Below are positions 10,262 through 22,825 of a DNA stretch of 22,825 nt, in pieces. Source of the stretch: a virus; the IMG/VR virus record IMGVR_UViG_3300032278_000123, positions 1 to 22,825 of that record. One strand, 5' to 3'. The notes under the pieces were generated by a model, which ran no database searches, had not been told where the DNA came from, and saw only the letters and a program-made list of their open reading frames with translations. A program made the position numbers and the translations under genes. How positions within the stretch are numbered: the stretch's first letter is position 1; each line of letters opens with the position of its first letter.

Positions 10262-10269
10262 TTAATCTC

Positions 10270-10392: not shown

Positions 10393-10404
10393 GTTTCCTC
10401 CTAA

Positions 10405-10873: not shown

Positions 10874-10874
10874 C

Positions 10875-10925: not shown

Positions 10926-10937
10926 AGGCTGAAAAGT

Positions 10938-11026: not shown

Positions 11027-11382
11027 AAAGTGGACTAACGCTACGCTACGTATGGGACCTTGATGGATGTAAGTCTCTTCTTGCGATTACTTCGACACCC
11101 CAGGTACGAGCTATTCTAACAGCTCTTATCGTTAAGGGTGTGTCTGAGTACTCTCGCGAGGAAATGATTGCTTTCTGGCATGAGCTCTGCGCTGGATTCA
11201 CTCATAAGGGACAACACATCCAGCTTCACTCTGGCATGGCTAGTTCTTGGAAGGGCGTCTTTGAGTACTACAGCAACCTTCCTGTGGACGGCTTCCGTGC
11301 AAGAGGTCTACTTAGCACACCTAATCCTAGTGTTAAGACTGAAGTCAAGGAACCATCCAAGTCCTCTTCTAAAGTTAACTAG
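11023..11382 (+). CDS. 119-aa hypothetical early protein
   Basis: The product starts MKSGLTLRYVWDLDGCKSLL, is predicted soluble, and ends in a Lys/Ser-rich tail (KTEVKEPSKSSSKVN) that looks disordered. The middle (SREEMIAFWHELCAGFTHKG) is helical with a Trp and a Cys but no known active-site motif. I do not recognise a family. The start overlaps the stop of a 10-codon leader and has AGGA 7 nt upstream. Codon choice favours TAC, AAG, GAC and TTC, unlike the A/T-ending codons in the genes to the right, which suggests strong expression or a different origin. It is probably an early host-takeover protein, inferred from its position behind the control RNA. Confidence 0.65.
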   Translation: MKSGLTLRYVWDLDGCKSLLAITSTPQVRAILTALIVKGVSEYSREEMIAFWHELCAGFTHKGQHIQLHSGMASSWKGVFEYYSNLPVDGFRARGLLSTPNPSVKTEVKEPSKSSSKVN

Positions 11383-11463
11383 AAGGGTACCTGGAGGATA
11401 AGGATACTTGATCTGTGTAGATTGAGAGATCTATAGGCTCAGATAAATGTCATCCTGAATTAG
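11383..11463 (+). other. Folded 3' untranslated segment
   Basis: After the 119-aa gene the transcript can fold CTTGATCT (11407-11414) with AGATTGAG (11419-11426) around GTGT, using two G-U pairs, enclosed by AGGAT (11401-11405) with ATCCT (11452-11456). It leads directly into the terminator stem. Confidence 0.4.
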
Positions 11464-11548
11464 TCCTCCCTCGAAAGGGTCTGCCAAACGGGTTCTGGTC
11501 ATCTACGACCAAACTTGTACCTAATCGAGGGAGGATTTTTTTATTTTT
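11464..11548 (+). terminator. Strong rho-independent terminator of the plus-strand early unit
   Basis: TCCTCCCTCGA (11464-11474) pairs perfectly with TCGAGGGAGGA (11525-11535), 11 bp, followed by seven T, an A and five T. The 50-nt loop contains its own hairpin TGGTC/GACCA with a 6-nt loop. A branched loop of this size is unusual for a simple terminator and may indicate a stable small RNA ending here. Confidence 0.75.
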
Positions 11549-11699
11549 CCGGCCCCGGGAGTGCAGAGGCGGCGGCTGAAGAGGCCCAGGTTTTTTTATC
11601 TGGTGCGGCGGCAGCGGACGATGCGGCTTCAGCTACTTCAAAAAGGGGTGCGGTATCGGTAAACGGGGCGGCGAGGCGGGTGCTGCGGCTTCTGAATAC
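11549..11699. other. GC-rich low-complexity patch between convergent terminators
   Basis: This stretch is rich in GCGGC, GGCGG and GCGGCT words and is much more GC-rich than its surroundings. The plus-strand frame that crosses it begins inside the terminator, has no ribosome site, and encodes an Ala-rich low-complexity chain, so I do not call it a gene. I see no minus-strand gene either. Confidence 0.5.
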
Positions 11700-11737
11700 A
11701 AAAAAAGGCCGCGGACCCCCGGATAGGAGCGCGCGGC
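11700..11737 (-). terminator. Rho-independent terminator facing the plus-strand unit
   Basis: On the minus strand GCCGCG (11737-11732) pairs with CGCGGC (11713-11708) across an 18-nt loop, and C then seven T follow (11707-11700). It would end transcripts coming from the minus-strand small genes to the right. An inverted repeat GTATCA/TGATAC at 11766-11787 lies between it and the last gene. Confidence 0.55.
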
Positions 11738-11799
11738 TGATAGAAGATGGATACTTCTTGGTTCTGTATCAACTGATCCGCTGATACTTTAAACTTCTG

Positions 11800-12132
11800 T
11801 TAGCTCTTCTTCGCCTGTTCTTCGACCTCAGTTACATAAGACTCTTCAGCCCAACGGCCTCCTGGCAACCAAGTATTAGCAACTGCAAGTACATAATCTC
11901 TCTCCAGCTGTCCTACATCATCTTGGCAAATTGTAGCAGTATGGCCGCCACGATATTCTCCTGAAACGACATCTGCAGCTAGACTTAAATGTTGTTCTAC
12001 TTCATCAGAAAACTCATCAGCTAGTGTCTTCTCCGTAAACGCCTTCACAGTCCTCTGCAATGTAGATTTAACAGCTGTACCACCATTTACATCTTCTAAT
12101 TTATAAATGTTGACGTAATACTTCTTTTCCAT
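11800..12132 (-). CDS. 110-aa hypothetical early protein
   Basis: The start is placed at the ATG 12132-12130, which has AGAAAGGTG 6 nt upstream; a GTG nine bases earlier is part of that site. The product begins MEKKYYVNIYKLEDVNGGTA and continues with an acidic, helical centre and a C-terminal Glu/Lys-rich end. Two short motifs, SGEYRGGHTATIC and NTWLPGGRW, are not diagnostic of a family I know. No membrane segment. It has its own copy of the early promoter motif directly upstream. Function unknown; likely one of several small early proteins made soon after infection. Confidence 0.7.
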   Translation of the reverse strand: MEKKYYVNIYKLEDVNGGTAVKSTLQRTVKAFTEKTLADEFSDEVEQHLSLAADVVSGEYRGGHTATICQDDVGQLERDYVLAVANTWLPGGRWAEESYVTEVEEQAKKS

Positions 12133-12140
12133 CTTTATCA

Positions 12141-12214
12141 CCTTTCTAATTAATATTAATTTTAATTATTATAATAATAAGTCTTCTAATAATTAAATAT
12201 AACTACTATTTTTT
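12141..12214 (-). promoter_or_regulatory. Early promoter repeat, copy A
   Basis: On the minus strand the core reads GAAGACTTATTATTATAA (12185-12168). The whole spacer, from the stop codon of the upstream gene to the AGAAAGG ribosome site, is 74 nt and matches copy B (12459-12532) at 65 positions by hand alignment. It precedes the 110-aa gene. Confidence 0.6.
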
Positions 12215-12448
12215 AATCTGCCACTCTGTGCCGCTTATATAATTATTATAAGCATCTCCAAGTCTATCTTCAAGTTTCTGCGACAACTCGTCATATATAA
12301 CAAACTCCAAATTTTTAACGTAGTTGCTATGTTGTTTATTAACTTCAATAGCCAAACTAAACAAAGCTTCTAATGCCATCGCGACTTCTTTATGTTTAGT
12401 TGGTATTGCTGCCAATTTATTTACAGCAGTTTGCACAGCTTCAACCAT
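12206..12448 (-). CDS. 80-aa hypothetical early protein
   Basis: A small helical protein (starts MVEAVQTAVNKLAAIPTKHK) with a run of alternating hydrophobic and charged residues (EVAMALEALFSLAIEVNKQH, then NYVKNLEFVIYDELSQKLED) that could form a coiled coil or helical bundle. No known motif and no membrane span. The ATG has AGAAAGGTG 8 nt upstream. The final Lys-Lys-stop (AAAAAATAG) forms the first bases of the downstream promoter repeat, so coding and regulatory sequence are fused here. It is the third of four small minus-strand genes. Function unknown. Confidence 0.7.
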   Translation of the reverse strand: MVEAVQTAVNKLAAIPTKHKEVAMALEALFSLAIEVNKQHSNYVKNLEFVIYDELSQKLEDRLGDAYNNYISGTEWQIKK

Positions 12449-12458
12449 TTTAAAAACA

Positions 12459-12532
12459 CCTTTCTAATTAATATTAACTTCTATTATTATAATTATAAAT
12501 CTTCTAATAATTAAATAAAACTGCTATTTTAC
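12459..12532 (-). promoter_or_regulatory. Early promoter repeat, copy B
   Basis: The minus-strand core is GAAGATTTATAATTATAA (12504-12487). It is nearly the same 74-nt spacer as copy A and again starts at the upstream stop codon (AAAATAG) and ends in AGAAAGG. It precedes the 80-aa gene. Confidence 0.6.
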
Positions 12533-12760
12533 TTCTATTTTTTCTAACTTCCCTTTTAACTCTTCATCTAGTTTTAAATATAATGCAGTCATAGTTTCAT
12601 ACATCTTATTTAACTCGGCAGGGATACGGTGGACATCTTCAAACGTATACTCCAGACCGCTATCTTCATGCTCTTGTTTACTTTGTATTCTTTTGAAGGC
12701 GATATCTTCACACACAAGTTTCAGTGCATCAGATATAAGCTTCATTTCCTTGTTGTTCAT
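12524..12760 (-). CDS. 78-aa hypothetical early protein
   Basis: The product starts MNNKEMKLISDALKLVCEDI and is a charged, mostly helical small protein with a segment EHEDSGLEYTFEDVHRIPAE (30-49) and a Lys/Glu-rich C-terminus (KLDEELKGKLEKIEVK). The ATG follows AAAAGGAG with 6 nt spacing. It lies 12 nt behind the 58-aa gene, so both are probably read from promoter copy C, whereas the next gene has its own promoter. The stop codon TAG is the first part of promoter repeat B. No homologous family recognised. Confidence 0.7.
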   Translation of the reverse strand: MNNKEMKLISDALKLVCEDIAFKRIQSKQEHEDSGLEYTFEDVHRIPAELNKMYETMTALYLKLDEELKGKLEKIEVK

Positions 12761-12772
12761 TTAATTCTCCTT

Positions 12773-12949
12773 TTAATCTTCTATAACCTTGATTATTATC
12801 TTCCCTTGTTTACCGCCATCTTTAATACTTTTTTCTTCATCAATCTCAATGTCAGTAATCTTCACATCATTGAAGGCGTTCTCAATATCAAGATTGTCAA
12901 TAACAACCCCGTCTTCCAAGTGCATCTTAAAAAACACATCATAAATCAT
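12773..12949 (-). CDS. 58-aa hypothetical early protein
   Basis: This short gene fills a gap that would otherwise look empty. It starts at ATG 12949-12947 with TTAGGTG about 8 nt upstream and ends TAA at 12775-12773. The peptide (MIYDVFFKMHLEDGVVIDNL at the start) is acidic and strand-rich, ending with DGGKQGKIIIKVIED, a regular alternating pattern that suggests a folded beta protein. It is the first gene behind promoter copy C and lies 12 nt upstream of the 78-aa gene. Function unknown. Confidence 0.65.
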   Translation of the reverse strand: MIYDVFFKMHLEDGVVIDNLDIENAFNDVKITDIEIDEEKSIKDGGKQGKIIIKVIED

Positions 12950-12956
12950 AAGTTCA

Positions 12957-13024
12957 CCTAATTAATACTATTACTATTATATATATTATAAATCTTCCAA
13001 TTTTTTATTAAAACTTCTATTTTA
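12957..13024 (-). promoter_or_regulatory. Early promoter repeat, copy C
   Basis: The minus-strand core is GAAGATTTATAATATATA (12997-12980), with the upstream AAAATAGAAGTTTTA that copies A and B also carry. It drives the 58-aa and 78-aa genes and lies back to back with the plus-strand copy at 13052. Confidence 0.55.
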
Positions 13025-13028
13025 TAAA

Positions 13029-13075
13029 ATTAGATGTATTATTTAATTTTAGGATGCTTTATTATATATAAAGAT
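13029..13075 (+). promoter_or_regulatory. Early promoter repeat, plus-strand copy
   Basis: The core reads GATGCTTTATTATATATA (13053-13070), 29 nt before the ATG of the zinc-finger-like gene. The preceding TAGATGTATTATTTAATTTTAG aligns with the upstream half of copies A and B. It forms a divergent pair with copy C. Confidence 0.5.
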
Positions 13076-13098
13076 AATAAAGTAAGAAAGGAGAAAAC

Positions 13099-13341
13099 AT
13101 GGCTGAGATGAAAAAGCGAATAGAATGCGACATTTGCGGTGGTCTATGTGAAATAAAGACTGATGCGAATGGAAAAGAATACTGGCGGGGTGGTGAAAGC
13201 GCTCACCCGTATGAGTTCTCTGACGAAGTCTTAAAACAGCGGGATGGTGACCCTAGATGTTGCATGCAATGTAATGTTGACATTGTAATGCCTCTACGAT
13301 TAGGTATGGTAACAATGGAGGAACTGAAAAATGAAGCATAA
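13099..13341 (+). CDS. Zinc-finger-like small protein
   Basis: The 80-residue protein has two CxxC-type clusters, CDICGGLC (10-17) and CCMQCN (54-59), which together could bind one zinc ion as a Cys4 ribbon. Between them is a charged linker with WRGGESAHPYEFSDE. Such small zinc proteins are common in phage early regions and may act as DNA- or protein-binding modulators; no specific function can be read here. The ATG follows GAAAGGAG with 7 nt spacing. The stop overlaps the start of the next gene by 11 nt, which suggests coupling. Confidence 0.75.
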   Translation: MAEMKKRIECDICGGLCEIKTDANGKEYWRGGESAHPYEFSDEVLKQRDGDPRCCMQCNVDIVMPLRLGMVTMEELKNEA

Positions 13342-13636
13342 GTTCGAAAAATTACAGGCAGAGGAGTCACTGAAACCTACTAACTCACTCTGGACGATAG
13401 ACAAAAAAGAAGACGAGCCCGACTTAAAAAGGGCGCAAAGATTTGTCTGTGGTTATATTGCGTGTGTTCAGCTGGAAGATGGTGACTGTCTCATAGTTAA
13501 CGAAGAAGGCAAACTTCATCAATTACCGATTAATGTAGCTGCGACTAAACTATGGAGAAAAAGTAATCCACTGTCTGAAGATTATATGGTTGGAAATGTT
13601 ATTTATATTAAGAAGGAAGCTAGAAAAAGTTATTAG
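13331..13636 (+). CDS. DUF3846-like small protein
   Basis: The 101-residue protein contains CGYIACVQLEDGDCLIVNEE (40-59), then GKLHQLPINVAATKLWR (60-76) and a final strand YMVGNVIYI (85-93). This order (strand, acidic turn, LIVNEEGK, Leu-Pro-hN-AT) is the pattern I associate with DUF3846, a small phage and plasmid family of unknown role. The region before residue 35 is charged and looks flexible. The gene overlaps the zinc-finger-like gene and ends just before the long gene-free structured segment. No catalytic residues stand out. Confidence 0.65.
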   Translation: MKHKFEKLQAEESLKPTNSLWTIDKKEDEPDLKRAQRFVCGYIACVQLEDGDCLIVNEEGKLHQLPINVAATKLWRKSNPLSEDYMVGNVIYIKKEARKSY

Positions 13637-13639
13637 AGA

Positions 13640-13912
13640 TTATGGGGGATGGAACCAGTACGCTGTAATGGCGTTGCATATATGTGGGTGAAATCCCTGG
13701 CAACATAGCCGAGTAAAATCGGCGACCCCCTGTAAAGGGAAGATTTTTGTAATATTAACTGTAGTTAATGATTTAGTATACAAAAAATAACAATCTTCCC
13801 GGTGATGAGGCGAGTACTTTACCCATGTTTCGTACAACTTTCATCGGAGTAAACATATGGGCTCATGATGAAAGTAGGGTTTCTCCGTACTCGCCGCTGA
13901 ACTTAAATTAAA
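13640..13912 (+). ncRNA. Candidate structured RNA, three paired domains
   Basis: About 275 nt with no credible gene fold into three domains in plus-strand RNA. Domain 1: GGGGG (13644-13648) pairs with CCCCC (13726-13730) around ACGC/GCGT (13660/13671), GTTGC/GCAAC (13673/13700) and GCCGA/TCGGC (13708/13719). Domain 2: GGGAAGATT (13737-13745) with AATCTTCCC (13792-13800), inner TTTGTA/TACAAA and TTAAC/GTTAA. Domain 3: GGCGAGTAC (13809-13817) with GTACTCGCC (13887-13895), enclosing ACTTTCATC (13837-13845) with GATGAAAGT (13867-13875). CCCAT and GTTT (13822-13830) can also pair with AAAC and ATGGG (13851-13861), a pseudoknot or alternative fold. I recognise no known RNA class. It precedes the 68-aa gene. 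Confidence 0.6.
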
Positions 13913-13925
13913 GAAAGGAGATAAG

Positions 13926-14132
13926 ATGAAACTTAATATGAGAGAAATAAAGTGGATTAGGCAGTCTTTATATGCGCATGCCACAAAATATAAGACCAGC
14001 CAAAATCCTGACTTCCTAAAATATAATGATCAACTTTTGAAACTTCACAAGAAGTTTCGTAAATGGGAGTTAAAAATAGAAGACAAATTAGAAAAAAGAC
14101 ATGATGAAACAACCAATATAGTGAGGTACTAA
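13926..14132 (+). CDS. 68-aa basic hypothetical protein
   Basis: The product is very basic and helical (starts MKLNMREIKWIRQSLYAHAT, later KLHKKFRKWELKIEDKLEKR), with no membrane span and no known motif. The ATG has AAAGGAG 6 nt upstream, one of the better ribosome sites in the window. It follows the structured segment at 13640-13912, which may control its translation or be processed away from it. It is separated by 1 nt from the next gene. A nucleic-acid-binding role would fit the charge, but this is only a guess. Confidence 0.65.
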   Translation: MKLNMREIKWIRQSLYAHATKYKTSQNPDFLKYNDQLLKLHKKFRKWELKIEDKLEKRHDETTNIVRY

Positions 14133-14133
14133 A

Positions 14134-14397
14134 ATGGAACTAAGGTATGGAACGAAAACCAGAACCAAACTAATGGAGGTTTGGAGGAACACATCTGCGA
14201 AACGAGACACAGCAGTTGATTTAAATATCGGTTACCTTGACGATGCTTTGTTGGGTTGGGCTTATCGTAATGCCCCCATCGAAGTGTTGAGAGAAAAACT
14301 AAGAGAATATAAAAAGAATTACGATTATATAGATAGGAGATACGACAAACGGACTAAGATTAGTACAGATGATTATACCGAAGAACTATACGACTAG
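14134..14397 (+). CDS. 87-aa hypothetical protein
   Basis: The 87-residue protein begins MELRYGTKTRTKLMEVWRNT. It is rich in Arg, Lys and Tyr, with a helical centre (IEVLREKLREYKKNYDYIDR) and an acidic end. No family is recognised. It is the last gene of the plus-strand group that started at 13099, and a terminator follows within 45-100 nt. The ATG has GAGG 8-10 nt upstream, within the end of the preceding gene. Confidence 0.65.
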   Translation: MELRYGTKTRTKLMEVWRNTSAKRDTAVDLNIGYLDDALLGWAYRNAPIEVLREKLREYKKNYDYIDRRYDKRTKISTDDYTEELYD

Positions 14398-14438
14398 TTC
14401 TTCCCCTAAATTGAGGGCTACAAAATAAAGGACACTTC

Positions 14439-14497
14439 AAAGTTACACTTCTAAAGTGTTAGTATATAGGGGTTTTTGAACTTTTTTTTATTTTTTT
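14439..14497 (+). terminator. Rho-independent terminator of the 13.1-14.4 kb group
   Basis: AAAGTT (14439-14444) pairs with AACTTT (14479-14484), enclosing ACACTT (14445-14450) with AAGTGT (14454-14459). The sequence then runs T7-A-T8. The long T tract is the best support; the outer stem overlaps its first bases. Confidence 0.6.
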
Positions 14498-14598
14498 TGT
14501 TGTAAAGTTACCAATAGACCAATAACTATCTCTCCTGCGATGGCCTAAACCATTGATTCTACATAATAAAGTTCATTATTGGTATATAGTATTGGGGC

Positions 14599-14724
14599 TC
14601 ATTTTGAGCCAATAATCGCCAATACAACCGCAAATGCCGCGGATATTCCTAATATAAATATCAGGACGAGGCCCGCGGCTAGCAGTAAAAGTGGCGAAAA
14701 TAACCAACTTAAAAACGTCAACAT
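14599..14724 (-). CDS. 41-aa membrane protein
   Basis: The frame starts at ATG 14724-14722, overlapping the stop of the preceding gene as TAATG, and ends at TGA 14601-14599. After a short start (MLTFLSWLFSP) almost all residues are hydrophobic (LLLLAAGLVLIFILGISAAF, then AVVLAIIG), enough for one long or two short membrane spans, ending in Ser-Lys. No family is recognised. It is the last gene of the minus-strand operon that begins at 15641. Pairing with another tiny membrane protein is reminiscent of holin and antiholin pairs, but this is inference from size and hydropathy alone. Confidence 0.6.
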   Translation of the reverse strand: MLTFLSWLFSPLLLLAAGLVLIFILGISAAFAVVLAIIGSK

Positions 14725-14849
14725 TAGTCCCAAACCTGTAAGATTACGTAGACTAATATTAAGAACCAGATACCGGCAACTGTCCAGCTAACTATTTTCC
14801 AGACGTTGTTCATTTTTATCTCCTGTTCCCAGTCAGTATGACTTTTCAT
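14724..14849 (-). CDS. 41-aa membrane protein with two possible starts
   Basis: The first ATG (14849-14847) overlaps the previous stop as TAATG and has GGAG 7-8 nt upstream. A second in-frame ATG at codon 13 (14813-14811) has its own CAGGAG site. The long form adds a charged MKSHTDWEQEIK to the short form, whose body has one membrane span (IVSWTVAGIWFLILVYVILQ) and a short WD end. Dual starts that differ in N-terminal charge occur in lambda-type holins, where the two forms antagonise each other. Here the arrangement is seen, but the function is inferred. The stop overlaps the next gene as TAATG. Confidence 0.6.
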   Translation of the reverse strand: MKSHTDWEQEIKMNNVWKIVSWTVAGIWFLILVYVILQVWD

Positions 14850-15061
14850 TATGCATCTCCTTGTTTTTTACGGATGCGTTCAATATCAACATATCCCGCA
14901 GCTTGGTAAGGAACAAGTTCTCCATCCTTGCGGACAAATTCCCCGTCCCTACCAATACGCGCTGCCAAAACACGTCGGTTCATCGTCACGTAAAGTGTAG
15001 GGTAGAGTACATGCTCTACCCCATTAACCCTTATCTTTCGATAAGTATCGTCAGGTGTCAT
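14849..15061 (-). CDS. 70-aa basic hypothetical protein
   Basis: I place the start at the ATG 15061-15059, 4 nt after the preceding stop. A longer frame with 11 more residues (rich in Lys and Arg) begins inside the upstream gene without a ribosome site. The product (MTPDDTYRKIRVNGVEHVLY at the start) is basic and strand-rich, with a segment RRVLAARIGRDGEFVRKDGE and no known motif. Its stop is shared with the start of the following membrane gene. Function unknown. The start choice is uncertain. Confidence 0.6.
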   Translation of the reverse strand: MTPDDTYRKIRVNGVEHVLYPTLYVTMNRRVLAARIGRDGEFVRKDGELVPYQAAGYVDIERIRKKQGDA

Positions 15062-15065
15062 TTTC

Positions 15066-15641
15066 TCACGACGCCTTAGCTTCCGATTTTTCATCGATTG
15101 TATTCCTTAACTTTTTTGTAAGTTTATTAACTTCATCAGTAATCCCATCGCACTCTTCTAAGATTTTCTGATGGTAAGGGTGCTCTTCAAACTCACCCTG
15201 ATGCTCAGCAAGGGTCATTCCGTGAGTCACTGCAATGTGCGATGAGTTTGGTATAAATTGCACCACACAAACATTCCCAACAAATTGAGGCATTCGACGT
15301 TGAATTTCGATAGTCTCACCTCTTTTTTCCTGGGACCACTTTATAAAGTTTAAGCGTGCTTCAATTGCCCACTTATTCAATACTCTGTCTTCCTTAATGA
15401 ATGTACTTTCAATAGGCGAGTAGTACATTGAAAAGTTTTCGGTAGGATGGACATCAGAATGCCGACCTATATTTGTAAGAAGGCCATCTGAACCATATTC
15501 TTTTAAAACTTCTCTGAAGTTATCACCTAAGATAAGGTGCTGCAGATGTTTCACAATATCGCCACGATTTTCAACTACCATATCTTCCCCTAAGCCAGGG
15601 TCTTGATTGACAGCATCAAAAGATTTAATATTCCAAGACAT
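15066..15641 (-). CDS. 191-aa hypothetical early protein
   Basis: The 191-residue soluble protein starts MSWNIKSFDAVNQDPGLGED. Distinct segments are NFREVLKEYGSDGLLTNIGR (41-60), a Trp-containing stretch around residue 90 and a strand-rich RRMPQFVGNVCVVQFIPNSS. The C-terminal third is Glu/Lys-rich and likely coiled. No catalytic motif or known family is recognised. It is the first gene of the minus-strand operon behind promoter copy at 15661-15711, with GAAAGGAG close to the ATG. As the largest early protein in this group it may be a host-takeover factor, but nothing in the sequence proves it. Confidence 0.7.
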   Translation of the reverse strand: MSWNIKSFDAVNQDPGLGEDMVVENRGDIVKHLQHLILGDNFREVLKEYGSDGLLTNIGRHSDVHPTENFSMYYSPIESTFIKEDRVLNKWAIEARLNFIKWSQEKRGETIEIQRRMPQFVGNVCVVQFIPNSSHIAVTHGMTLAEHQGEFEEHPYHQKILEECDGITDEVNKLTKKLRNTIDEKSEAKAS

Positions 15642-15660
15642 TTTTTCTCCTTTCTATATA

Positions 15661-15711
15661 TTATCATATAATATAATTATATTTCATCCGATTTTATAAG
15701 TACACTTCTTT
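15661..15711 (-). promoter_or_regulatory. Early promoter repeat, minus-strand copy before the 191-aa gene
   Basis: The minus-strand core is GATGAAATATAATTATA (15689-15673) preceded by a GAAGTGTACTTATAAAATCG upstream half. It lies back to back with the plus-strand copy at 15728-15772 in the 269-nt gap between the two divergent operons. Confidence 0.5.
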
Positions 15712-15727
15712 TTTTAAAAAAGAGGTA

Positions 15728-15772
15728 AAATAAATGTTTACTTTTATTATTGGAAGAATTATTATATATATT
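15728..15772 (+). promoter_or_regulatory. Early promoter repeat, plus-strand copy before the replication operon
   Basis: The core is GAAGAATTATTATATATA (15753-15770), preceded by AAAATAAATGTTTACTTTTA, which resembles the upstream half of the other copies. It would produce a leader of about 140 nt before the 93-aa gene; that leader holds a GGGGAGCTCC-rich segment (15859-15868) facing a run of C (15887-15892). Confidence 0.5.
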
Positions 15773-15910
15773 AAGTACTTAGAGTTAACACGACGGAGTT
15801 ATTCGGATAAGTTGTTTCTCTTTGTGCTTGTTTTGAAATGATGTTCATGTTAAATTAAGGGGAGCTCCGGAGATTCCCGTTTCCAGCCCCCCTCTTTTTA
15901 GGAGAAAGAT

Positions 15911-16192
15911 ATGAGAAGAAAGACAAAAAATAAGTGGGTTTATCAAATGCCGTCGATGCTCACTATAGAAGATGTAAATAAGAGGCGGCCTCCCTTACCC
16001 AATCAAGCACGCAATATTGCTAAGATTCTCTTAGAGGCGGGCGCATTAAAACGGCCAGCTCTTTTAGAAGCCATGCAGACACTAGTCAAGACGAAGCAAA
16101 AGGGTGGGGCAAATAGAATTTTAACATATTACCAGAAACTCTTAGTTGATGCTGGTTTTCTGATTTTGACAAAGAGGCCTAACAATGGCTAA
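15911..16192 (+). CDS. 93-aa basic protein, possibly DNA-binding
   Basis: The product starts MRRKTKNKWVYQMPSMLTIE and is strongly basic. Residues about 30-88 show a helix-helix-helix-strand pattern (NQARNIAKILLEAGALKRPA, then ILTYYQKLLVDAGFLILTK) that resembles a winged helix-turn-helix fold, but no family motif confirms it. The ATG follows TAGGAGAAAG with a good spacing. It opens the large plus-strand replication operon and overlaps the methyltransferase gene by 8 nt. A regulator of the operon or a replication accessory are both possible. Confidence 0.6.
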   Translation: MRRKTKNKWVYQMPSMLTIEDVNKRRPPLPNQARNIAKILLEAGALKRPALLEAMQTLVKTKQKGGANRILTYYQKLLVDAGFLILTKRPNNG

Positions 16193-17090
16193 TGCAAGAG
16201 GCAAAGAGATCGACAATACTCATCTGAGTATTGTACAAGCCGAGGCTCGAGGTTTTCTCCATAGGGATTATATTGCTCATTGCTTGCGCTGGACGCATGT
16301 GGTGAAATATCTTAGTCTCAAGAAAAGATACAAAGAAGCCAATATTCTAGATGTGGGATGTGGAAAGGACATGCCATTGGCTCGTACCTTAATGACCTCG
16401 AGACTCGCACCTATGTCATATTTAGGTGTGGATTTCAACGCGATGGAAATTCCTTCGATGTTTGAAAAGACTACCTTTCAACCTAAACTTATTCAGAATG
16501 AAGATTTTTCACTCCTTGACCTTAAATTATGGTTTGAGATGAAAATGGGAGAAGGGTGGAAACCTAACTATGTTACTTGTTTTGAAGTCCTAGAGCATGT
16601 TGAGCCGTGGACCGCGATTAAAATACTTGGCAACATTGGCGAGCATGTCAGTGATGATAATACATGCTGGTTCTCGACCCCTTGCTGGGATGAAAAGGTA
16701 GGGGCCGCCGCAAACCATGTTAATGAGATGACCTATGAGGCGTTCGGTTCTCTCTTAGAACATATGGGATTCAAGATTCTAGATCATTGGGGGACATTTG
16801 CCTCAATTAAAGATTATCGCATCCACATGGATCTAAAGACTGAAGAGATGTTTGACAAATTAAAAGAATATTACGATAGCAATTATATCGCAACGATATT
16901 TGCCCCGCTTTACCCGCAACACTCCCGAAATTGTCTTTGGGAGACTCAATTTTGTGGACGATTAAAGCTCGAAGAAAGGAACTTTGGACCAATAGATAAG
17001 ATTGAGGGCAGACTTGGTTCATCTACACACTGGAGAGAGTTAGTAAAATGTACAAACGCGGAAGAAAAGGAAGTTTCTACAGAGACGTAG
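16185..17090 (+). CDS. SAM-dependent methyltransferase (class I)
   Basis: The 301-residue protein carries a Rossmann methyltransferase core: motif I ILDVGCGKD (54-62), the acidic residue after strand 2 in GVDFN (81-85), the FEVLEHVE motif (133-140) and the strand 5 segment CWFSTP (161-166). This is the small-molecule or protein methyltransferase pattern; the (D/N/S)PPY motif of DNA amino-methyltransferases and the PC motif of C5 enzymes are absent. The C-terminal 100 residues are family-specific and contain several aromatic residues. The substrate is unknown. Its place upstream of the nucleotide enzymes leaves open a role in base modification. It overlaps the next gene by 43 nt. Confidence 0.75.
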   Translation: MANARGKEIDNTHLSIVQAEARGFLHRDYIAHCLRWTHVVKYLSLKKRYKEANILDVGCGKDMPLARTLMTSRLAPMSYLGVDFNAMEIPSMFEKTTFQPKLIQNEDFSLLDLKLWFEMKMGEGWKPNYVTCFEVLEHVEPWTAIKILGNIGEHVSDDNTCWFSTPCWDEKVGAAANHVNEMTYEAFGSLLEHMGFKILDHWGTFASIKDYRIHMDLKTEEMFDKLKEYYDSNYIATIFAPLYPQHSRNCLWETQFCGRLKLEERNFGPIDKIEGRLGSSTHWRELVKCTNAEEKEVSTET

Positions 17091-17431
17091 AAGACTTTCA
17101 TCGAAAGTTTCTGCTTGGATATGCTGGACGCCCAAGAATGCTTGAAGAGGAAATCATGCTGGCTAGGTGCAGTCACCAACAAGAGGAGCTTGCTGAGATA
17201 CTCAAAGGAATTTATGAAAATGATAAAGTGCAGGTTCTTGATGGGTTAGTTGATACTGTATATGTGGCGTTAGGCACATCCTATCTTATGGGCTTTGATT
17301 TTGAAGAGGCCTGGGATAGAGTCCATGAAACAAATATGAAGAAAGTTAGAATGAAAACAAAACGATCAAAGATAGATGTTGTAAAGCCAGTTGGCTGGAA
17401 AGCACCTGTCTTAAAAGACTTATGCGAATAA
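17048..17431 (+). CDS. MazG/PRA-PH-like nucleotide pyrophosphohydrolase
   Basis: The 127-residue protein is an all-alpha NTP pyrophosphohydrolase: a first helix DVEDFHRKF (13-21), the metal-binding QEELAE (45-50), a second acidic pair in LDGLVD (64-69) and the typical closing KPVGWKAPVL (113-122), which I recall from phage phosphoribosyl-ATP pyrophosphohydrolase-like proteins. Such enzymes cleave (d)NTPs to monophosphates. T4 Gp56, the dCTPase/dUTPase of the same broad fold, feeds dCMP hydroxymethylase and deaminase, and all three counterparts are neighbours here. Substrate cannot be read from sequence. It overlaps the methyltransferase by 43 nt and the kinase by 10 nt. Confidence 0.8.
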   Translation: MYKRGRKGSFYRDVEDFHRKFLLGYAGRPRMLEEEIMLARCSHQQEELAEILKGIYENDKVQVLDGLVDTVYVALGTSYLMGFDFEEAWDRVHETNMKKVRMKTKRSKIDVVKPVGWKAPVLKDLCE

Positions 17432-18435
17432 TAGTTTTAGATGGCCCCGATGCAGTAGGTAAGACTACTCTCGCGAAGGCAATTATAGAGAAGTATCCAA
17501 AAACTAAGTATTTCCACCTTGGTTATAGATACAAGGACAGGATGTTTGATTACCATACAGCGGCAATTAGGGTTGCTGGAAAAGCAGCGGTAACTCATAA
17601 CGTCATTCTTGATCGTTGGTGGCCGAGTGAAGGCTGCTATGCAAGTATATATCGAGGTGGTAGTGCTTGGCCGCTTCAAGGAAGGTTCTTAGAACGAGCC
17701 GGTTTAAAATACGGTGCAGTTTACGTGATGTGCCTGCCTGATGAAAATACTGCTAAAAGATTTAAAAAGATGAAAGAAGAGCGCACAGAGATGTATGAAG
17801 ATATTAAAGAAGTTAGCGAGCTATACACAAAGTTTTATAATGGAGACAAAGACCATAAAGATAAAGGAAATTATATTGATCAAATTATTCTTAATGGAGG
17901 CGCTAAAGAGATTCCTTATTTTTTACCTTACACCATTGAAAAGTGGGGTGCGCACAAAGATATGTTTATTGATATGATTATGCATGCCGCAAAAAAGATG
18001 AGAATGACACAGTGGCTAACTGCTTTAAATCCAAATGAGCATAACATCTTAGGACATAAGCAATTTGCTAAATATCTATTTGTAGGTGATAAAGTGAACC
18101 CTAAATATAAAAGATTATTTTGGCCATTTTTTGAATACGGAAATTGCAGTTTAAGCTTTACAACTATATTAAATAAATTGTGGATCAAAGAAAGAAATTG
18201 TGCTTGGACAAATATACATCATCCAATAACAGGACAACTTGATTTACGATTTCCTAAGGCTGCAAATGGTCATATCAAGATTATTGCATTAGGAAAAGAA
18301 GCAAAAGAAGCTTTAGATAAAAACGAGATTAAAACCCATGCGGTTTTAAAACACCCTCAGTACTATAGGAGATTTTTAGGTAGCCTAAAGACGGGGGACC
18401 CTTTATATAATGATTTGAAGGAGGTGATAATATGA
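17422..18435 (+). CDS. Deoxynucleoside monophosphate kinase fused to a UDG-like domain
   Basis: The 337-residue protein has two parts. Residues 1-195 are a thymidylate-kinase-like P-loop enzyme with GPDAVGKTT (8-16) and the DRWWPSE motif (64-70) that corresponds to the DRY/H base-binding motif. Residues about 205-330 resemble the uracil-DNA glycosylase superfamily: YLFVGDKVNP (218-227), WPFFEYGNCSL (234-244), AWTNIHHP (261-268), IIALGKEA (287-294) and KHPQYYRRF (310-318), in the order and spacing of motifs 1 to 3. The usual glycosylase catalytic residues are not obvious. It could phosphorylate dTMP or a modified dCMP; the second domain may recognise or remove a base. It shares ATGA with the next gene. 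Confidence 0.7.
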   Translation: MRIIVLDGPDAVGKTTLAKAIIEKYPKTKYFHLGYRYKDRMFDYHTAAIRVAGKAAVTHNVILDRWWPSEGCYASIYRGGSAWPLQGRFLERAGLKYGAVYVMCLPDENTAKRFKKMKEERTEMYEDIKEVSELYTKFYNGDKDHKDKGNYIDQIILNGGAKEIPYFLPYTIEKWGAHKDMFIDMIMHAAKKMRMTQWLTALNPNEHNILGHKQFAKYLFVGDKVNPKYKRLFWPFFEYGNCSLSFTTILNKLWIKERNCAWTNIHHPITGQLDLRFPKAANGHIKIIALGKEAKEALDKNEIKTHAVLKHPQYYRRFLGSLKTGDPLYNDLKEVII

Positions 18436-19223
18436 CAGCAAATGATGTTTGGTATCATACTGCCCTGCACTTGCTCAATACGGGAAAGGAGTTCAATCCA
18501 AAAGACTTAGACACCCGAGAGCACGTTAATTTTCAGACAGCAGTTCCAATGTCTCATCCATTTGTAACGTACAAGGAGAGAAAATTAGGTTATAAATTCA
18601 TGGCTGCAGAAGCCGCTACCATTTTGATTGGCGGAAATACTGTAGCAAGTTTAAAACCATTCTCAAAGGAAATCGCTAGTTTTTCTGATGATGGATATTT
18701 CTTCTCCGGTGCTTATGGACCGAGGGTCGTGGATCAACTTACATACATCGTAGACTGTTTGGTTGAGGATGAGTTTTCTCGACAGGCAGTAATGACTTTG
18801 TGGCGTAAGAATCCAAGACAAAGTAAGGATATTCCTTGCACTGTTGCATTACAGTTCTTAATAAGGGATGGAAGACTTCATTGCATTGCGACCATGAGAT
18901 CGAGTGATATCTGGTTGGGATGGCCATATGATGTGTTTAACTTTACCATGATCTCGCACTATCTCTCATTATTGTGGGAACATAGGAAAGGTTATTCTTT
19001 GACACTTGGTATGCTCTATATTAATGCTGGGAGTCAACATCTTTATTGGGACGATTTCGATAAGGTAAAGAAATTGCGTTCTGGCGACTATGACGAAAAA
19101 ATAGTTCTAGTAACTGAGTCACAGAACCCTTTTATAGGTTTTAATAGCCCACATAACTTGGTAGAGTGGCTTATTGAAAGAGCTGAGAATGGAGATTTGT
19201 TAGATAAATGCAGACAAGATTGA
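18432..19223 (+). CDS. Thymidylate synthase-family enzyme, possible dCMP hydroxymethylase
   Basis: The 263-residue protein aligns along the catalytic core of thymidylate synthase: the nucleophile Cys136 in DIPCTVALQF, the phosphate-binding Arg156-Ser157 and Asp159 in MRSSDIWLG, and His203 and Tyr205 in SQHLYW. In E. coli ThyA the segment GLPFNIASY holds Asn177, which reads the 3-NH/4-oxo edge of uracil; here the matching segment is GWPYDVFNF, with Asp167. Asn to Asp at this site is the hallmark of T4 dCMP hydroxymethylase (Gp42). The second Arg of the RR pair is Gln118. The enzyme should therefore prefer dCMP, making 5-hydroxymethyl-dCMP or 5-methyl-dCMP with a folate cofactor. Ordinary TS is the alternative. 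Confidence 0.75.
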   Translation: MTANDVWYHTALHLLNTGKEFNPKDLDTREHVNFQTAVPMSHPFVTYKERKLGYKFMAAEAATILIGGNTVASLKPFSKEIASFSDDGYFFSGAYGPRVVDQLTYIVDCLVEDEFSRQAVMTLWRKNPRQSKDIPCTVALQFLIRDGRLHCIATMRSSDIWLGWPYDVFNFTMISHYLSLLWEHRKGYSLTLGMLYINAGSQHLYWDDFDKVKKLRSGDYDEKIVLVTESQNPFIGFNSPHNLVEWLIERAENGDLLDKCRQD

Positions 19224-19420
19224 TGTCGTTCATTGAGTCAATGACTCAAGTAACAGTAGGTTTAGTGATTAGTTATACTTTCACACTGTTTGGGATGCCG
19301 TACTTCTTTGGTATTACCTTTACTTATAATGAAGCTGGATTAATCACATTAACTTACTTTTTCTTGTCTGCTATACGAATGTATATTATAAGAAGGATAT
19401 TTGATGCGACGTCCAAGTAG
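19208..19420 (+). CDS. DUF7220-like small membrane protein
   Basis: The 70-residue protein has two hydrophobic segments (about 12-32 and 44-60) and ends RMYIIRRIFDATSK. The starting pattern MQTRLMSFIESMTQVTVGL and the RRIF end are those of a small two-span phage family I know as DUF7220, found beside replication genes of many phages. The role is unknown; an anchor for replication enzymes has been one speculation that the sequence cannot test. It overlaps the thymidylate synthase-family gene by 16 nt and the deaminase by 17 nt, so it is embedded in the operon. Confidence 0.7.
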   Translation: MQTRLMSFIESMTQVTVGLVISYTFTLFGMPYFFGITFTYNEAGLITLTYFFLSAIRMYIIRRIFDATSK

Positions 19421-19898
19421 AGACTCATATTTCTTGTCAATGGCGCATCTTGTTAGTACCAGAAGTACTTGTGTAAGACGACAAGTTGGCTGCATACTTA
19501 TCGATGACAATAATTTTGTTGTTGCCACTGGTTATAATGGAGTTGGAAAAGGCCAAGTACATTGTATTACTAAACCATGTCCAGGTGCAAAATATACTAG
19601 TGGAAAGGGACTGGATAAATGTGAGGCAATTCATGCTGAACAAAACGCTTTATTACAGTGCAGAGATACTCAAAAGATTAGTAAAGCTTATTTGACGTTA
19701 AGTCCGTGCATTACATGCGTTAAATTATTATTAAACACGTCTTGTCGAGAACTTTTGTTTGATGAGGAATATATTAACTTAGATGCGAAAAGGATATGGA
19801 AAAATGCCCGTCGATTATGGACCCCGGCAAATGCCGTTGTGGACTCCGGAATCAAGGTGGACCCCTCCACCGGACTTCCCGGACTTGACAAAAGCTAA
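19404..19898 (+). CDS. Deoxycytidylate (dCMP) deaminase
   Basis: The 164-residue enzyme starts at ATG 19404, which has AAGGA 8 nt upstream; the preceding TTG codon is not needed. It contains the zinc and catalytic motifs HAEQNA (77-82) and PCITC (101-105) of the cytidine deaminase fold, and the typical STCVRRQVGCILIDD entry (21-35). It converts dCMP to dUMP, the substrate of thymidylate synthase, and is usually regulated by dCTP and dTTP. The His-Cys-Cys-rich insert CITKPCPGAKYTSG (54-67) is common in phage dCMP deaminases. The last 95 nt overlap the DNA polymerase gene in another frame. Confidence 0.9.
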   Translation: MRRPSRDSYFLSMAHLVSTRSTCVRRQVGCILIDDNNFVVATGYNGVGKGQVHCITKPCPGAKYTSGKGLDKCEAIHAEQNALLQCRDTQKISKAYLTLSPCITCVKLLLNTSCRELLFDEEYINLDAKRIWKNARRLWTPANAVVDSGIKVDPSTGLPGLDKS

Positions 19899-21702
19899 GC
19901 TGATTGCGTTTGACTGTGAAACTTGTGACCCAAACCTAATGACAATGGGACCTGGTGGCGTAAGAAATGATGGTAAGCTTATCGGAGTTTCTCTTGCTAC
20001 TGATACAGGGTTTAAGGGATATTATCCAATCGGTCATGAAGGGGGCGGAAATTTAGATAGGAAAAAAGTCCTTGCTTGGTTAAAAGAGCAATTAGAGACT
20101 GATATTTTTAAAGTTGGCGCTAATATTCTTTATGATCTAGAATGGCTGCGTTCCGTTGGTATTAATGTTAAAGGTCATTTTTATGATATTCAAGTAGCCG
20201 AGCCTTTAATAGATGAAGAAAGAAAAGAAGGATATAGCTTAGAAGTTCTTAGTCAAAGATATTTGGGACGTGGAAAAGATGAAACCTTATTAAAGGCAGC
20301 CGCAGAAGCTTATAACTTAGATCCTAAAAAAGATATGTGGCAATTACCTCCTCACTACGTAGGTGGATATGCTGAAATTGATGCTGTAAATACTTTGGAG
20401 ATATTTCAAAAACAAATTGAAATTTTAAAAGAAAATGGATTAGAAGAAATTTTTAGATTGGAGACCGCACTAATTCCATTAATATTAGATATGAGATTTA
20501 AGGGTGTAAGAATTAATATAGATAAGGCAGAACAATTAAACTCTAGGTATGAAAAGAAAGAAGGAGAGATGCTAGTCAAGCTTCGTGAGAAAGCCGGATT
20601 TCCTGTTGAACCTTGGAGCAGCGAGCAACTTGCATTAGCTTGCGAAAAAACTAGAACCTGGTTCCCAGTTACTGAAGCTGGCAATCCTTCATTTACTGCA
20701 GAATTTATGGGTAATAGCAAAGATCCGTTTTTGGAAATGGTCGCTGAGTTTCGAAAAGTTAATAAGATGAGGAGAGATTTTATAAAAAAAGTGTGCCTTG
20801 ATATGTCTGTTAAAGGACGTATCCACGCTCAATTTCATCAACTAAGAAGAGATTCTGAAGGGACTAGAAGTGGACGGTTTAGTTCTAGTAACCCTAATTT
20901 ACAGCAGATTCCGGCTCGAGACGAGTATTGGGGCCCATTGGTTAGGTCATTATTTCTTCCGGAAGAAGGACACCAGTGGGCTCGCTTAGATTATAATCAA
21001 CAAGAACCTAGGATGCTAGTTCATTATGCTGTGCTGCGTAACATTAGAGGTTCAAAAGAAGCTTGTGAAGCCTATAAACAAAAGGAAGCCGACTTCCATA
21101 CATTAGTAGCAGAAATGGCAGATATAGATAGAAAGACTGCGAAGACAATTAACTTAGGTATTATGTATGGAATGGGAACATTTAAGCTAGGACAGATGCT
21201 TAATTTAAATTATAATGCTGCAACTATTCTATTGGAGAAATATCATGGCAATGTTCCGTTTGTAAAAGGTTTAATGCATGAAGCCTCTAAAGCTGCCTTA
21301 TATAGAGGTGAGATTAAAACTCTTCTTGGAAGAAAAAGACATTTTGACTATTGGGAGCCAGCTGATTCTACTTTAAGATGGCCTAACAAGGAAATGCCTT
21401 TAAGAAAGATTGATGCAGAAAAAGTGTGGAAAGGTAGACCTTTAAGAAGAGCTTATACTCATAAGGCGCTAAATGCTCTTATTCAAGGCGCCTCAGCAGA
21501 TTTAACAAAGAAGGCTATGTTAGACTTATATACTGAATTAAATGTTGTCCCTCATTTACAGGTACATGATGAAATAGATATTTCTTATAAAGATGAAAAC
21601 GAACTAAAAAAGATTGCCCAGATCATGGAAAACTGTGTAGAATTAGAGGTGCCTTTAAAGGTAACATTAGAGAAAGGCCCATCGTGGGGAGAATGTAGGT
21701 GA
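19804..21702 (+). CDS. Family A DNA polymerase with 3'-5' exonuclease
   Basis: I choose the ATG at 19804 (AAGGA 10 nt upstream); a start 21 nt earlier or one at 19831 is possible. The 632-residue protein has an exonuclease domain with DCE (37-39), NILYD (107-111) and YAEID (189-193), and a polymerase domain with motif A LDYNQQEPR, motif B RKTAKTINLGIMYG (443-456) and motif C HDE (588-590). It is a T7-type replicative polymerase. The position equal to E. coli Phe762 is Leu, a variant frequent in marine phages. It begins inside the deaminase gene and ends overlapping the nuclease gene (GTGA). Confidence 0.93.
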   Translation: MPVDYGPRQMPLWTPESRWTPPPDFPDLTKAKLIAFDCETCDPNLMTMGPGGVRNDGKLIGVSLATDTGFKGYYPIGHEGGGNLDRKKVLAWLKEQLETDIFKVGANILYDLEWLRSVGINVKGHFYDIQVAEPLIDEERKEGYSLEVLSQRYLGRGKDETLLKAAAEAYNLDPKKDMWQLPPHYVGGYAEIDAVNTLEIFQKQIEILKENGLEEIFRLETALIPLILDMRFKGVRINIDKAEQLNSRYEKKEGEMLVKLREKAGFPVEPWSSEQLALACEKTRTWFPVTEAGNPSFTAEFMGNSKDPFLEMVAEFRKVNKMRRDFIKKVCLDMSVKGRIHAQFHQLRRDSEGTRSGRFSSSNPNLQQIPARDEYWGPLVRSLFLPEEGHQWARLDYNQQEPRMLVHYAVLRNIRGSKEACEAYKQKEADFHTLVAEMADIDRKTAKTINLGIMYGMGTFKLGQMLNLNYNAATILLEKYHGNVPFVKGLMHEASKAALYRGEIKTLLGRKRHFDYWEPADSTLRWPNKEMPLRKIDAEKVWKGRPLRRAYTHKALNALIQGASADLTKKAMLDLYTELNVVPHLQVHDEIDISYKDENELKKIAQIMENCVELEVPLKVTLEKGPSWGECR

Positions 21703-22106
21703 CAGAAAAAGATTTATGGCAGCTAATTCGTAAGAATATTCCAGGTCATTTATGCCGGATAGAAAATTTAGGAATGGCTGGAGTACCTGACATCCATGCT
21801 TGTCATCGTGGGGTTATGGTGTGGTTAGAATTAAAAATTGCCTCTGGACAGACTGTCTATTTTCAAAGTTCTCAGTTAGCTTTTATGCAAGAAGCAAAGA
21901 AAAATAGAGAGAATGTAAAGGTATTGATTAGAAAAAATGAACTACTTTATTTAATTAGAAGTAATATTTTAATAAAAGAAGTGTATAATTCAATTAATAG
22001 TGATAAGATTAAATTTAACTTGAGTGAATTTTCTAGAGCCTATATATGGGGAAAACCTTGGCGCTGGAATGAGATTACTCAAAAGATATATGAGAAAGAA
22101 GAATGA
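21699..22106 (+). CDS. VRR-NUC/PD-(D/E)XK nuclease-like protein
   Basis: The start is a GTG overlapping the polymerase stop as GTGA. The 135-residue protein has the small nuclease core: CRIENLGMAGVPDIHACHRG (19-38) with Pro-Asp at 30-31, followed by WLELK (42-46) as the Glu-x-Lys and QSSQLAFMQEA in the following helix. This is the VRR-NUC type of the PD-(D/E)XK superfamily. In T7 the comparable position after the polymerase module holds nucleases for host DNA breakdown and recombination. A junction-resolving or flap-cutting activity is plausible. The C-terminal 45 residues are Tyr/Trp-rich and unassigned. Confidence 0.75.
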   Translation: MTEKDLWQLIRKNIPGHLCRIENLGMAGVPDIHACHRGVMVWLELKIASGQTVYFQSSQLAFMQEAKKNRENVKVLIRKNELLYLIRSNILIKEVYNSINSDKIKFNLSEFSRAYIWGKPWRWNEITQKIYEKEE

Positions 22107-22417
22107 ATAATGTATATGTAGTGCAGGAGGTTAAAAATCGTAACCTTATGCCTGCTCAGAAATTTGGAGAACTAGTATTGCTACTGCCACCTGGAAATAT
22201 AGTTCTGTCACCTGCCCCAACTGTACGAAGGTTGGTTAAAGGTTTAAAGGATTATAATGACGACGATTATCTTTTAGCGATGGGAGACCCGATTGCAATA
22301 GGTCTCGCTAGTGCGATAGCAAGCGATTTCAATAATGGAAAAGTAAATTTTCTTAAATGGGATCGACAAGAAAGACTTTATTATAAAGTTAAGTGTAATA
22401 TATTTGGGAGAAAATAG
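22103..22417 (+). CDS. Conserved-type 104-aa phage protein of unknown function
   Basis: The product starts MNNVYVVQEVKNRNLMPAQK and contains FGELVLLLPPGNIVLS (21-36), DDDYLLAMGDPIAIGLASAI (53-72) and KWDRQERLYY (84-93). The combination of a GDP-hydrophobic helix and a WDRQ motif recurs in proteins encoded beside phage DNA polymerases, in my recollection, but no function is known. It could be a replication accessory protein. It shares ATGA with the nuclease gene and is followed directly by the next gene. Confidence 0.65.
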   Translation: MNNVYVVQEVKNRNLMPAQKFGELVLLLPPGNIVLSPAPTVRRLVKGLKDYNDDDYLLAMGDPIAIGLASAIASDFNNGKVNFLKWDRQERLYYKVKCNIFGRK

Positions 22418-22639
22418 ATGACATTAGCAGCTTTTGATCCAAGAAATATAACTTTATATAAAGAACCAAAATATTTATTACACTTCCAATGGGGAGGAGG
22501 AGGCAATATATATAGATATGCTTTGGTTGAGGTTATTCCGCCAAAGGAGATTAATTCTCTGACGAAACAAAAGGCAGATGAATTAAATTTAGAACAGAAA
22601 GAAATTTGGAGGACTAAATACAATGGATTTATCAGATGA
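22418..22639 (+). CDS. 73-aa hypothetical protein
   Basis: The ATG directly follows the previous stop codon, with GGGAGAAAAT as the ribosome region. The product begins MTLAAFDPRNITLYKEPKYL and has an aromatic HFQWGGGGNIYRYALVEVI segment before a charged helical end. No domain is recognised. It overlaps the next gene by 17 nt. It is a member of the replication operon of unknown function. Confidence 0.6.
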   Translation: MTLAAFDPRNITLYKEPKYLLHFQWGGGGNIYRYALVEVIPPKEINSLTKQKADELNLEQKEIWRTKYNGFIR

Positions 22640-22825
22640 TCAGTTAAAGGCGGTTTCTAAATTAGCTTTAGACATAGAAGCTCAAACATTAATAGTACAA
22701 GATTGTCAAGAATCTCTTGATAGAGCGATAACAAAATTAAGAGAATTGGAAGAGAAAATCCTTCCAGAAAAATTTGCAGAGCTTGGCTTAGCAGAAGTTA
22801 AGTTAAAAGATGGAAGTTCTGTTTC
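22623..22825 (+). CDS. Partial early/replication protein, N-terminus only
   Basis: Sixty-seven codons are visible from an ATG at 22623 with GGAGG about 10 nt upstream; the window ends before a stop. The visible part is a helical coiled coil (MDLSDDQLKAVSKLALDIEA at the start, then ITKLRELEEKILPEKFAELG) followed by LAEVKLKDGSSV. The pattern of a coiled coil, Leu-Pro, then Gly-Leu-hydrophobic-Asp-Gly resembles small phage proteins near exonuclease genes whose function is unknown; I am unsure of the match. Confidence 0.6.
   Translation, partial: MDLSDDQLKAVSKLALDIEAQTLIVQDCQESLDRAITKLRELEEKILPEKFAELGLAEVKLKDGSSV

Follow-up and report, generated by a model that had tools for sequence, protein, structure and literature searches.

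A phage gene cassette predicted to replace cytosine by a 5-hydroxymethylcytosine derivative, with a methyltransferase as candidate decorator

The stretch of DNA analysed here is a 22.8-kb virus record from IMG/VR (IMGVR_UViG_3300032278_000123; 22,825 nucleotides, hereafter the window). Its plus strand carries a compact set of nucleotide-metabolism genes in which an initial annotation had proposed a T4-like route to 5-hydroxymethyl-dCMP. The four genes on which this proposal was based, encoding a MazG/PRA-PH pyrophosphohydrolase, a deoxynucleoside monophosphate (dNMP) kinase, a thymidylate synthase (TS) family enzyme and a dCMP deaminase, are intact within 17048-19898 and overlap or nearly so. 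While the four families were correctly named, two components had been overlooked: a methyltransferase gene, with which the conserved unit begins one gene 5′ of the noted operon, and a second domain in the kinase, which resembles uracil-DNA glycosylases (UDG).

The gene cassette and its conservation

The genes of the cassette, followed by two other features of the same region, are as follows.

16185-17090, plus strand: class I S-adenosylmethionine (SAM) methyltransferase (Methyltransf_23; PF13489, 2.3e-13), first cassette gene
17048-17431, plus strand: MazG/PRA-PH nucleotide pyrophosphohydrolase, predicted dCTPase removing unmodified dCTP (PF01503, 2.7e-9; phrog_671, 3.7e-24)
17422-18033, plus strand: P-loop dNMP kinase, N-terminal domain (about residues 1-204), predicted 5-hydroxymethyl-dCMP kinase (phrog_761, 1.3e-14)
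18034-18435, plus strand: UDG-superfamily-like C-terminal domain of the same protein (about residues 205-337; Pfam in homologues, Foldseek); the whole kinase gene is 17422-18435
18432-19223, plus strand: TS-family enzyme, predicted dCMP hydroxymethylase (PF00303, 1.9e-15; Cys136, Asp133, Asp167, Arg117/Ser157)
19401-19898, plus strand: dCMP deaminase (dCMP to dUMP; dTTP supply) (PF00383, 5.5e-18; phrog_174, 2e-36)
19208-19420, plus strand: small DUF7220 protein (PF23858, 9e-17)
19783-21702, plus strand: family A DNA polymerase with 3′-5′ exonuclease (PF00476, 6e-59; PF01612, 4.5e-10)

Conservation was counted in an alignment of 83 loci centred on the TS-family gene, taken from IMG/VR (80), phage records (2) and the window itself. 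Their gene order, from methyltransferase through MazG, kinase, TS-family enzyme and deaminase to polymerase, is nearly constant. Of the 83, 76 have the kinase, 71 the deaminase, 70 MazG and 63 a methyltransferase, and 61 have a kinase with the extra C-terminal domain. Its recurrence in most of the 80 IMG/VR loci shows that this arrangement is not a chance assembly. The family A polymerase is the next gene of this order and lies 3′ of the cassette in most loci. The DUF7220 open reading frame (ORF), between the TS-family and deaminase genes, stands outside the conserved cassette; this slot is so occupied only in the window and in an independent assembly (L002), which overlaps window positions 9413-22825 at 99.955% identity and extends 6.4 kb beyond.

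Such a gene set had been considered unusual, a view that was not borne out. The podovirus record MW202510.1 (ct3Et533, Manatee Spring) already carries, in the same order, genes for a methyltransferase, an NTP-PPase, a kinase, a ‘pyrimidine hmase’ about 48% identical to the window TS-family enzyme, a dCMP deaminase and a polymerase; its kinase differs in having no C-terminal domain, and the record gives gene names only, with no function described. The five-gene order is also kept in the siphoviruses AXL3 and PW916. In Stenotrophomonas phage AXL3, which differs from the window in being a siphovirus, the methyltransferase is gp31, the hydrolase gp30, the kinase gp29 (which aligns over both domains), the TS-family enzyme gp28 and the deaminase gp27. 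The hydroxymethylase cassette is already known, through the GenBank annotation of MW202510 and the link to modified cytosine made by MetaGPA; the new part is the methyltransferase step.

The predicted hydroxymethylase and its partner enzymes

Two aspartates distinguish the TS-family protein. Asp167 aligns with Asn177 of Escherichia coli ThyA and with Asp179 of T4 gp42, and Asp133 stands at Cys-3 relative to the nucleophile Cys136, where E. coli ThyA has Leu. The pattern of dUMP-type ThyA (Asn at 177, Leu at Cys-3) is therefore not that of the window enzyme, which has Asp at both positions. In T4 gp42, Asp145 (Cys-3) activates the water molecule from which the hydroxyl derives and Asp179 selects cytosine, while thymidylate synthases have Leu at Cys-3 (PMC6400193). 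Alignment columns showed Asp133 and Asp167, together with Tyr95, Cys136, Glu60, Arg117 and Ser157, to be invariant in 139/139 homologues. The pair Arg117/Ser157 is of the dCMP type: the CMP hydroxymethylase MilA shares Asp at Cys-3 and the cytosine Asp with the window enzyme, but carries Lys133/Ala176 at these two positions, and the substitutions Lys133 to Arg and Ala176 to Ser shift it towards dCMP (PMC6400193). SPO1 gp29 likewise has Asp at Cys-3, but Asn at the base-selecting position.

Asp167 had been invoked as the residue favouring a modified cytosine. Its location at the ThyA 177 position and its invariance agree with this, but alone it proves little. Mutant thymidylate synthases with Asp at this position can also yield 5-methyl-dCMP (PMC8670742), so Asp167 by itself cannot separate hydroxymethylation from methylation.

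The best PDB match of the protein was MilA (1e-15). In a phylogenetic tree the cassette enzymes are separated from the T4 gp42 clade (100/99 split); their nearest characterised relatives are MilA and SPO1 gp29, although on long branches which leave the exact placement unsure. Identity to gp42 is 28% over 107 residues, with equivalents of gp42 Asp179, Asp145, Cys148, Tyr96 and Arg123 kept. The TS-family protein thus most likely hydroxymethylates dCMP, resembling gp42 in predicted function while lying outside the T4 lineage. Some relatives of the window (L008, L012) encode a dUMP-type ThyA in addition.

The same four steps are predicted as for T4 gp42, gp56, gp1 and Cd, and in this functional sense the term ‘T4-like’ holds; a shared descent is not apparent for most of the set. 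Besides the separate clade of the TS-family protein, no homology was detectable between the MazG/PRA-PH protein and gp56 (hhalign probability 0.4%), and comparison of the kinase with gp1 gave a probability of 6%, with the P-loop alone aligned. The deaminase is the homologous member, 31% identical to T4 Cd (153 columns).

The kinase was modelled with AlphaFold2 (pLDDT 93.5). Its N-terminal domain has the thymidylate kinase fold, as judged by VIA Z of 13-14 to thymidylate kinases (rmsd 3.0-3.7 over 154-178 residues), and matched YorR (2axp) in Foldseek at 4e-6. For the C-terminal domain, the UDG family PF03167 was found in four homologues at 6e-5 to 0.2 (L070/L073: 6e-5, 1e-4), under the cut-off, and not in the window protein. 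UdgX structures (6iod/6l5a) appeared in the Foldseek list of the kinase at E 4e-3 to 6e-3, the VIA list being filled by the kinase domain, and a profile of the UDG-like domain had no match among PDB sequences. Conserved residues of the domain are, in the numbering of alignment A2, G62, K68, W74-P75, S83, E97, N104, G131, H151-P152 and R157-F158. UDG-family bacterial defences, Brig3 and Brig1, excise 5-hydroxymethylcytosine (5hmC) or glucosyl-hmC from DNA. One may speculate that the UDG-like domain recognises or removes wrong nucleotides, for example 5-hydroxymethyl-dUMP arising from the deaminase. A relationship of the kinase with a P-loop protein of phage M6, a possible 5-hydroxymethyl-dU (5hmdU) DNA kinase, was considered and rejected, since just 23 P-loop residues align; other M6 candidates gave no match.

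The methyltransferase, its linkage and its slot

The methyltransferase has four residues, Glu134, Glu137, His138 and His178, which are invariant in 142/142 homologues. Its AlphaFold2 model (pLDDT 88) gave VIA Z of 18.3 with CmoM, 17.8 with ChlM and 15.8 with HEN1 (rmsd 2.7), and profile matches include Hen1 and UbiG. It has the fold of Hen1, UbiG and CmoM and, as in metal-dependent O-methyltransferases, an ExxEH motif plus a downstream His, but is less than 20% identical to these proteins and has conserved N- and C-terminal motifs of its own. Hen1, UbiG and CmoM are O-methylating enzymes, and in Hen1 the ExxEH-plus-His pattern serves to bind a metal. The DPPY-type motif of DNA amino-methyltransferases is absent, the protein reading CFEVLEH after strand 4. 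The cysteine of an STPC motif was also considered as the catalytic Cys of a C5-methyltransferase, and ruled out because some homologues have Val or Asn in its place.

The family occurs in only five of 50,697 phage records (MW202510, MW202621, AXL3 twice and PW916), that is four phages, all with the cassette. IMG/VR yielded 345 matching loci, from which a methyltransferase-seeded set of 77 was analysed. The methyltransferase is accompanied by a window-type hydroxymethylase in 38 of these, by a homologue of T4 gp42 in 16 and by a third lineage in 7. Another 6 have a hydroxymethylase with both Asp residues elsewhere in the record, and the last 10 are fragmentary records, truncated in the flank concerned. 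The clearest gp42-type partners are 44-49% identical to T4 gp42, with equivalents of Ser94, Asp145 and Asp179; enzymes of this type lie beside the methyltransferase at L100:8542-9243, L099:3886-4593, L107:917-1624 and others, the first on a contig (G051/L100) which encodes a T7-like RNA polymerase. The third lineage (L122-L129) is divergent, with both diagnostic Asp residues present. The most telling indication that the methyltransferase uses the product of these enzymes is its association with hydroxymethylases that are not orthologous to one another. It is accordingly predicted, from gene context, to act on the 5-hydroxymethyl group, either of 5-hydroxymethyl-2′-deoxycytidine (5hmdC, hmdC) or of an hmdC nucleotide.

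In two loci with a related hydroxymethylase and no methyltransferase (L044, L078), a carbamoyltransferase was found in its place. Carbamoyltransferases of this type act on 5hmC (MetaGPA, PMC8670742). Among 23 carbamoyltransferase-seeded loci, 21 had a hydroxymethylase and 0 the methyltransferase, and the carbamoyltransferase ended 33-228 bases 5′ of MazG in every seeded locus where MazG was found. Reciprocally, the carbamoyltransferase was present in 0/39 methyltransferase-bearing records. Fisher's test gave 5e-11 on the pooled table, whose rows are interrelated and come from sampling at both ends, and 0.045 on the unbiased 50 records alone. As judged by this shared slot and mutual exclusion, the methyltransferase looks like a substitute for the carbamoyltransferase in decorating the hydroxymethyl group.

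The MetaGPA cassette (PMC8670742) shares core genes, order and Asp177 with that of the window, with the carbamoyltransferase standing where the window has the SAM methyltransferase and never both; a further difference in the window type is the frequent fusion of the kinase to a UDG-like domain. Another difference from T4 is the presence of the methyltransferase. The T4-Gluco-transf family (PF09198) had no match in 50 relatives, a search which included no positive control, so that its absence is not established.

Several other genes were noted around these cassettes. Upstream of methyltransferase-free hydroxymethylase cassettes lie an ATP-dependent DNA ligase and, in L064, additionally a 5′ deoxyribonucleotidase (NT5C) (L048:855-1799, L064:7201-8211, L064:8572-9180). 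Two cassettes with neither methyltransferase nor carbamoyltransferase have a pyridoxal phosphate (PLP)-dependent enzyme (PALP) and unknown genes before the kinase (L079:8125-9027, L080:8072-8995), where an amino-acid-type hypermodification of cytosine is possible. In L136 a C5-cytosine-methyltransferase-like ORF (about 11134-12183) is inserted between the methyltransferase and MazG. Bacterial assemblies contained three clear relatives of the methyltransferase, with 47% (L169, a Nitrospiraceae metagenome-assembled genome), 35% (L170) and 37% (L171) identity, which are perhaps prophage-borne. In the window itself, a small ORF without family match (15911-16192) lies directly 5′ of the cassette and has relatives in the equivalent position of 23 further loci.

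The minus strand of the window encodes podovirus-type head and tail genes (portal or head-tail adaptor, major head protein, tail proteins, internal virion protein), among which an ORF at 742-1185 has a weak GNAT acetyltransferase match (PF13420, 0.0017). Its plus strand carries the cassette and the family A polymerase, and L002 adds on the same strand an AEP-type primase, a UvrD-type helicase and a SNF2-type helicase. The phage had also been called T7-type. This view cannot be upheld: the single-subunit RNA polymerase PF00940 was found neither in the window nor in L002 nor in the complete 41.7-kb relative MW202510, from whose length we estimate that about 10 kb of the window phage are unseen, whereas the positive controls HTVC200P, L034 and L100 all matched in the same search. 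A nucleotide search of the window against the 50,697 phage records returned no match.

Proposed pathway and alternative explanations

Published data on relatives bear on the DNA itself. Only 2/37 enzymes cut AXL3 DNA, TasI and Tru1I, both with A/T-only sites, and 35/35 enzymes with G or C in their site were blocked (PMC7504290). AXL3 gp28 has the same two Asp residues as the window enzyme, and we infer that the resistance stems from the cassette. Independently of this, TS-Asp177, PRA-PH and dCMP deaminase co-occur in contigs selected for modified cytosine (MetaGPA, PMC8670742). In T4gt DNA, which contains 5hmC, 41/227 enzymes cut at least partly. Assuming that about 10 of these 41 have A/T-only sites, the chance of zero cuts by the 35 G/C-site enzymes would be about 0.5% for plain hmC and about 60% for fully glucosylated T4 DNA, a rough count from panels that differ; the AXL3 enzyme counts point to a capped hmC in an only suggestive manner.

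Taken together, the invariance of Asp133, Asp167, Arg117 and Ser157, the resistance of AXL3 DNA and the MetaGPA co-occurrence uphold a route to 5-hydroxymethyl-dCMP. The operon very probably replaces genomic dC by a 5hmdC derivative through this route. MazG would convert dCTP to dCMP, from which the TS-family enzyme, as its diagnostic residues suggest, would produce 5-hydroxymethyl-dCMP with methylenetetrahydrofolate. The kinase domain, given its fold, would make hmdCDP, the deaminase would turn surplus dCMP into dUMP and so feed dTTP, and the phage PolA would incorporate hmdCTP. The genetically linked methyltransferase would cap the hydroxymethyl oxygen, giving 5-methoxymethyl-dC. Its simplest predicted reaction is O-methylation of hmC, on DNA or at the nucleotide level. 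That it acts on the hydroxymethyl group has slightly better than even prospects in our assessment; 5-methoxymethyl-dC as the product falls just short of that. No mention of 5-methoxymethylcytosine in phage DNA was found in the literature covered, subscription papers being outside its scope.

Some observations weigh against this pathway. The hydroxymethylation signature comprises, besides Asp (or Glu) at Cys-3, a Ser or Thr at position -2 from the conserved Tyr (T4 Ser94-x-Tyr96) (PMC6400193); the Ser94 equivalent is Gly in the window enzyme (Gly-Ala-Tyr) and in 124/139 homologues, and Ser in 15. This mark is not universal, however, since the residue is Ala in the dUMP hydroxymethylase SPO1 gp29. 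The substrates of MazG and the kinase are guesses, as neither has a sequence tie to gp56 or gp1. The fold matches of the methyltransferase leave its substrate unfixed, CmoM and ChlM being tied within Z 1. The AXL3 resistance could in principle come from a modified G.

The phages might alternatively contain plain 5hmdC, with a methyltransferase that is a mere passenger and targets something else (a host factor, RNA or a small molecule). Hydroxymethylase and kinase cassettes without methyltransferase do exist (Pelagibacter phage HTVC200P, L034, L035), and substrates cannot be read from methyltransferase folds. We nevertheless regard it as rather unlikely: the methyltransferase accompanies three hydroxymethylase lineages and never stands without one in testable records, it takes the carbamoyltransferase slot and excludes that enzyme, its few occurrences in phage records are all with the cassette, and the complete block of G/C-site enzymes by AXL3 DNA differs from the partial susceptibility of T4gt DNA. 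A role of the kinase-UDG fusion on DNA, where it would phosphorylate hmC for further substitution like the 5hmdU DNA kinase in thymidine hypermodification, could be argued from the fusion to a domain of base-flipping type, from the excision of 5hmC or glucosyl-hmC by Brig3 and Brig1 and from the PLP-enzyme genes adjoining two methyltransferase-free cassettes. With an N-terminal domain of thymidylate kinase fold, a match to the M6 protein confined to the P-loop and a dNMP kinase required anyway, it appears improbable.

Two further explanations concern the TS-family enzyme. It could be a dCMP methyltransferase producing 5-methyl-dC as in phage Xp12, whose DNA is likewise highly restriction resistant, and Asp at ThyA 177 alone yields 5-methyl-dCMP in mutant thymidylate synthases (cited in PMC8670742). 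Yet the water-activating Asp at Cys-3, Leu in dUMP-type enzymes, is invariant, and the carbamoyltransferase sharing the slot in sister cassettes requires a hydroxymethyl group, which makes methylation of dCMP more improbable still. The AXL3 authors interpreted the cluster as a dTMP supply, yet remarked on ThyX in the same phage (PMC7504290); in this reading, also that of the PW916 authors, the genes merely supply dTTP (dCTP to dCMP, dUMP, dTMP and dTDP). The family names are compatible with it, but the Asp/Asp active site in all homologues, the ThyX encoded by AXL3 and PW916, the additional dUMP-type ThyA of some relatives and the resistance of AXL3 DNA to digestion leave it hardly tenable.

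We therefore retain a cytosine modified through hydroxymethylation and tentatively propose, at somewhat less than even confidence, that phages carrying the cassette (podovirus, siphovirus, T7-like) make an undescribed base, 5-methoxymethyl-2′-deoxycytidine or another methylated hmdC, by means of a dedicated SAM methyltransferase, and that the UDG-like domain may serve to read or proofread this nucleotide. If so, the methyltransferase would fill the role of the T4 glucosyltransferases and of the carbamoyltransferase in sister cassettes, adding a third hmC decoration after sugars and carbamoyl. A methyl cap should block glucosylation and possibly also 5hmC-specific defences. The proposal gives a concrete and testable chemical prediction for a widespread, unexplained type of restriction resistance, that of AXL3, and ties it to hundreds of environmental phages, which the mis-annotation of their enzymes as thymidylate synthases conceals in databases.

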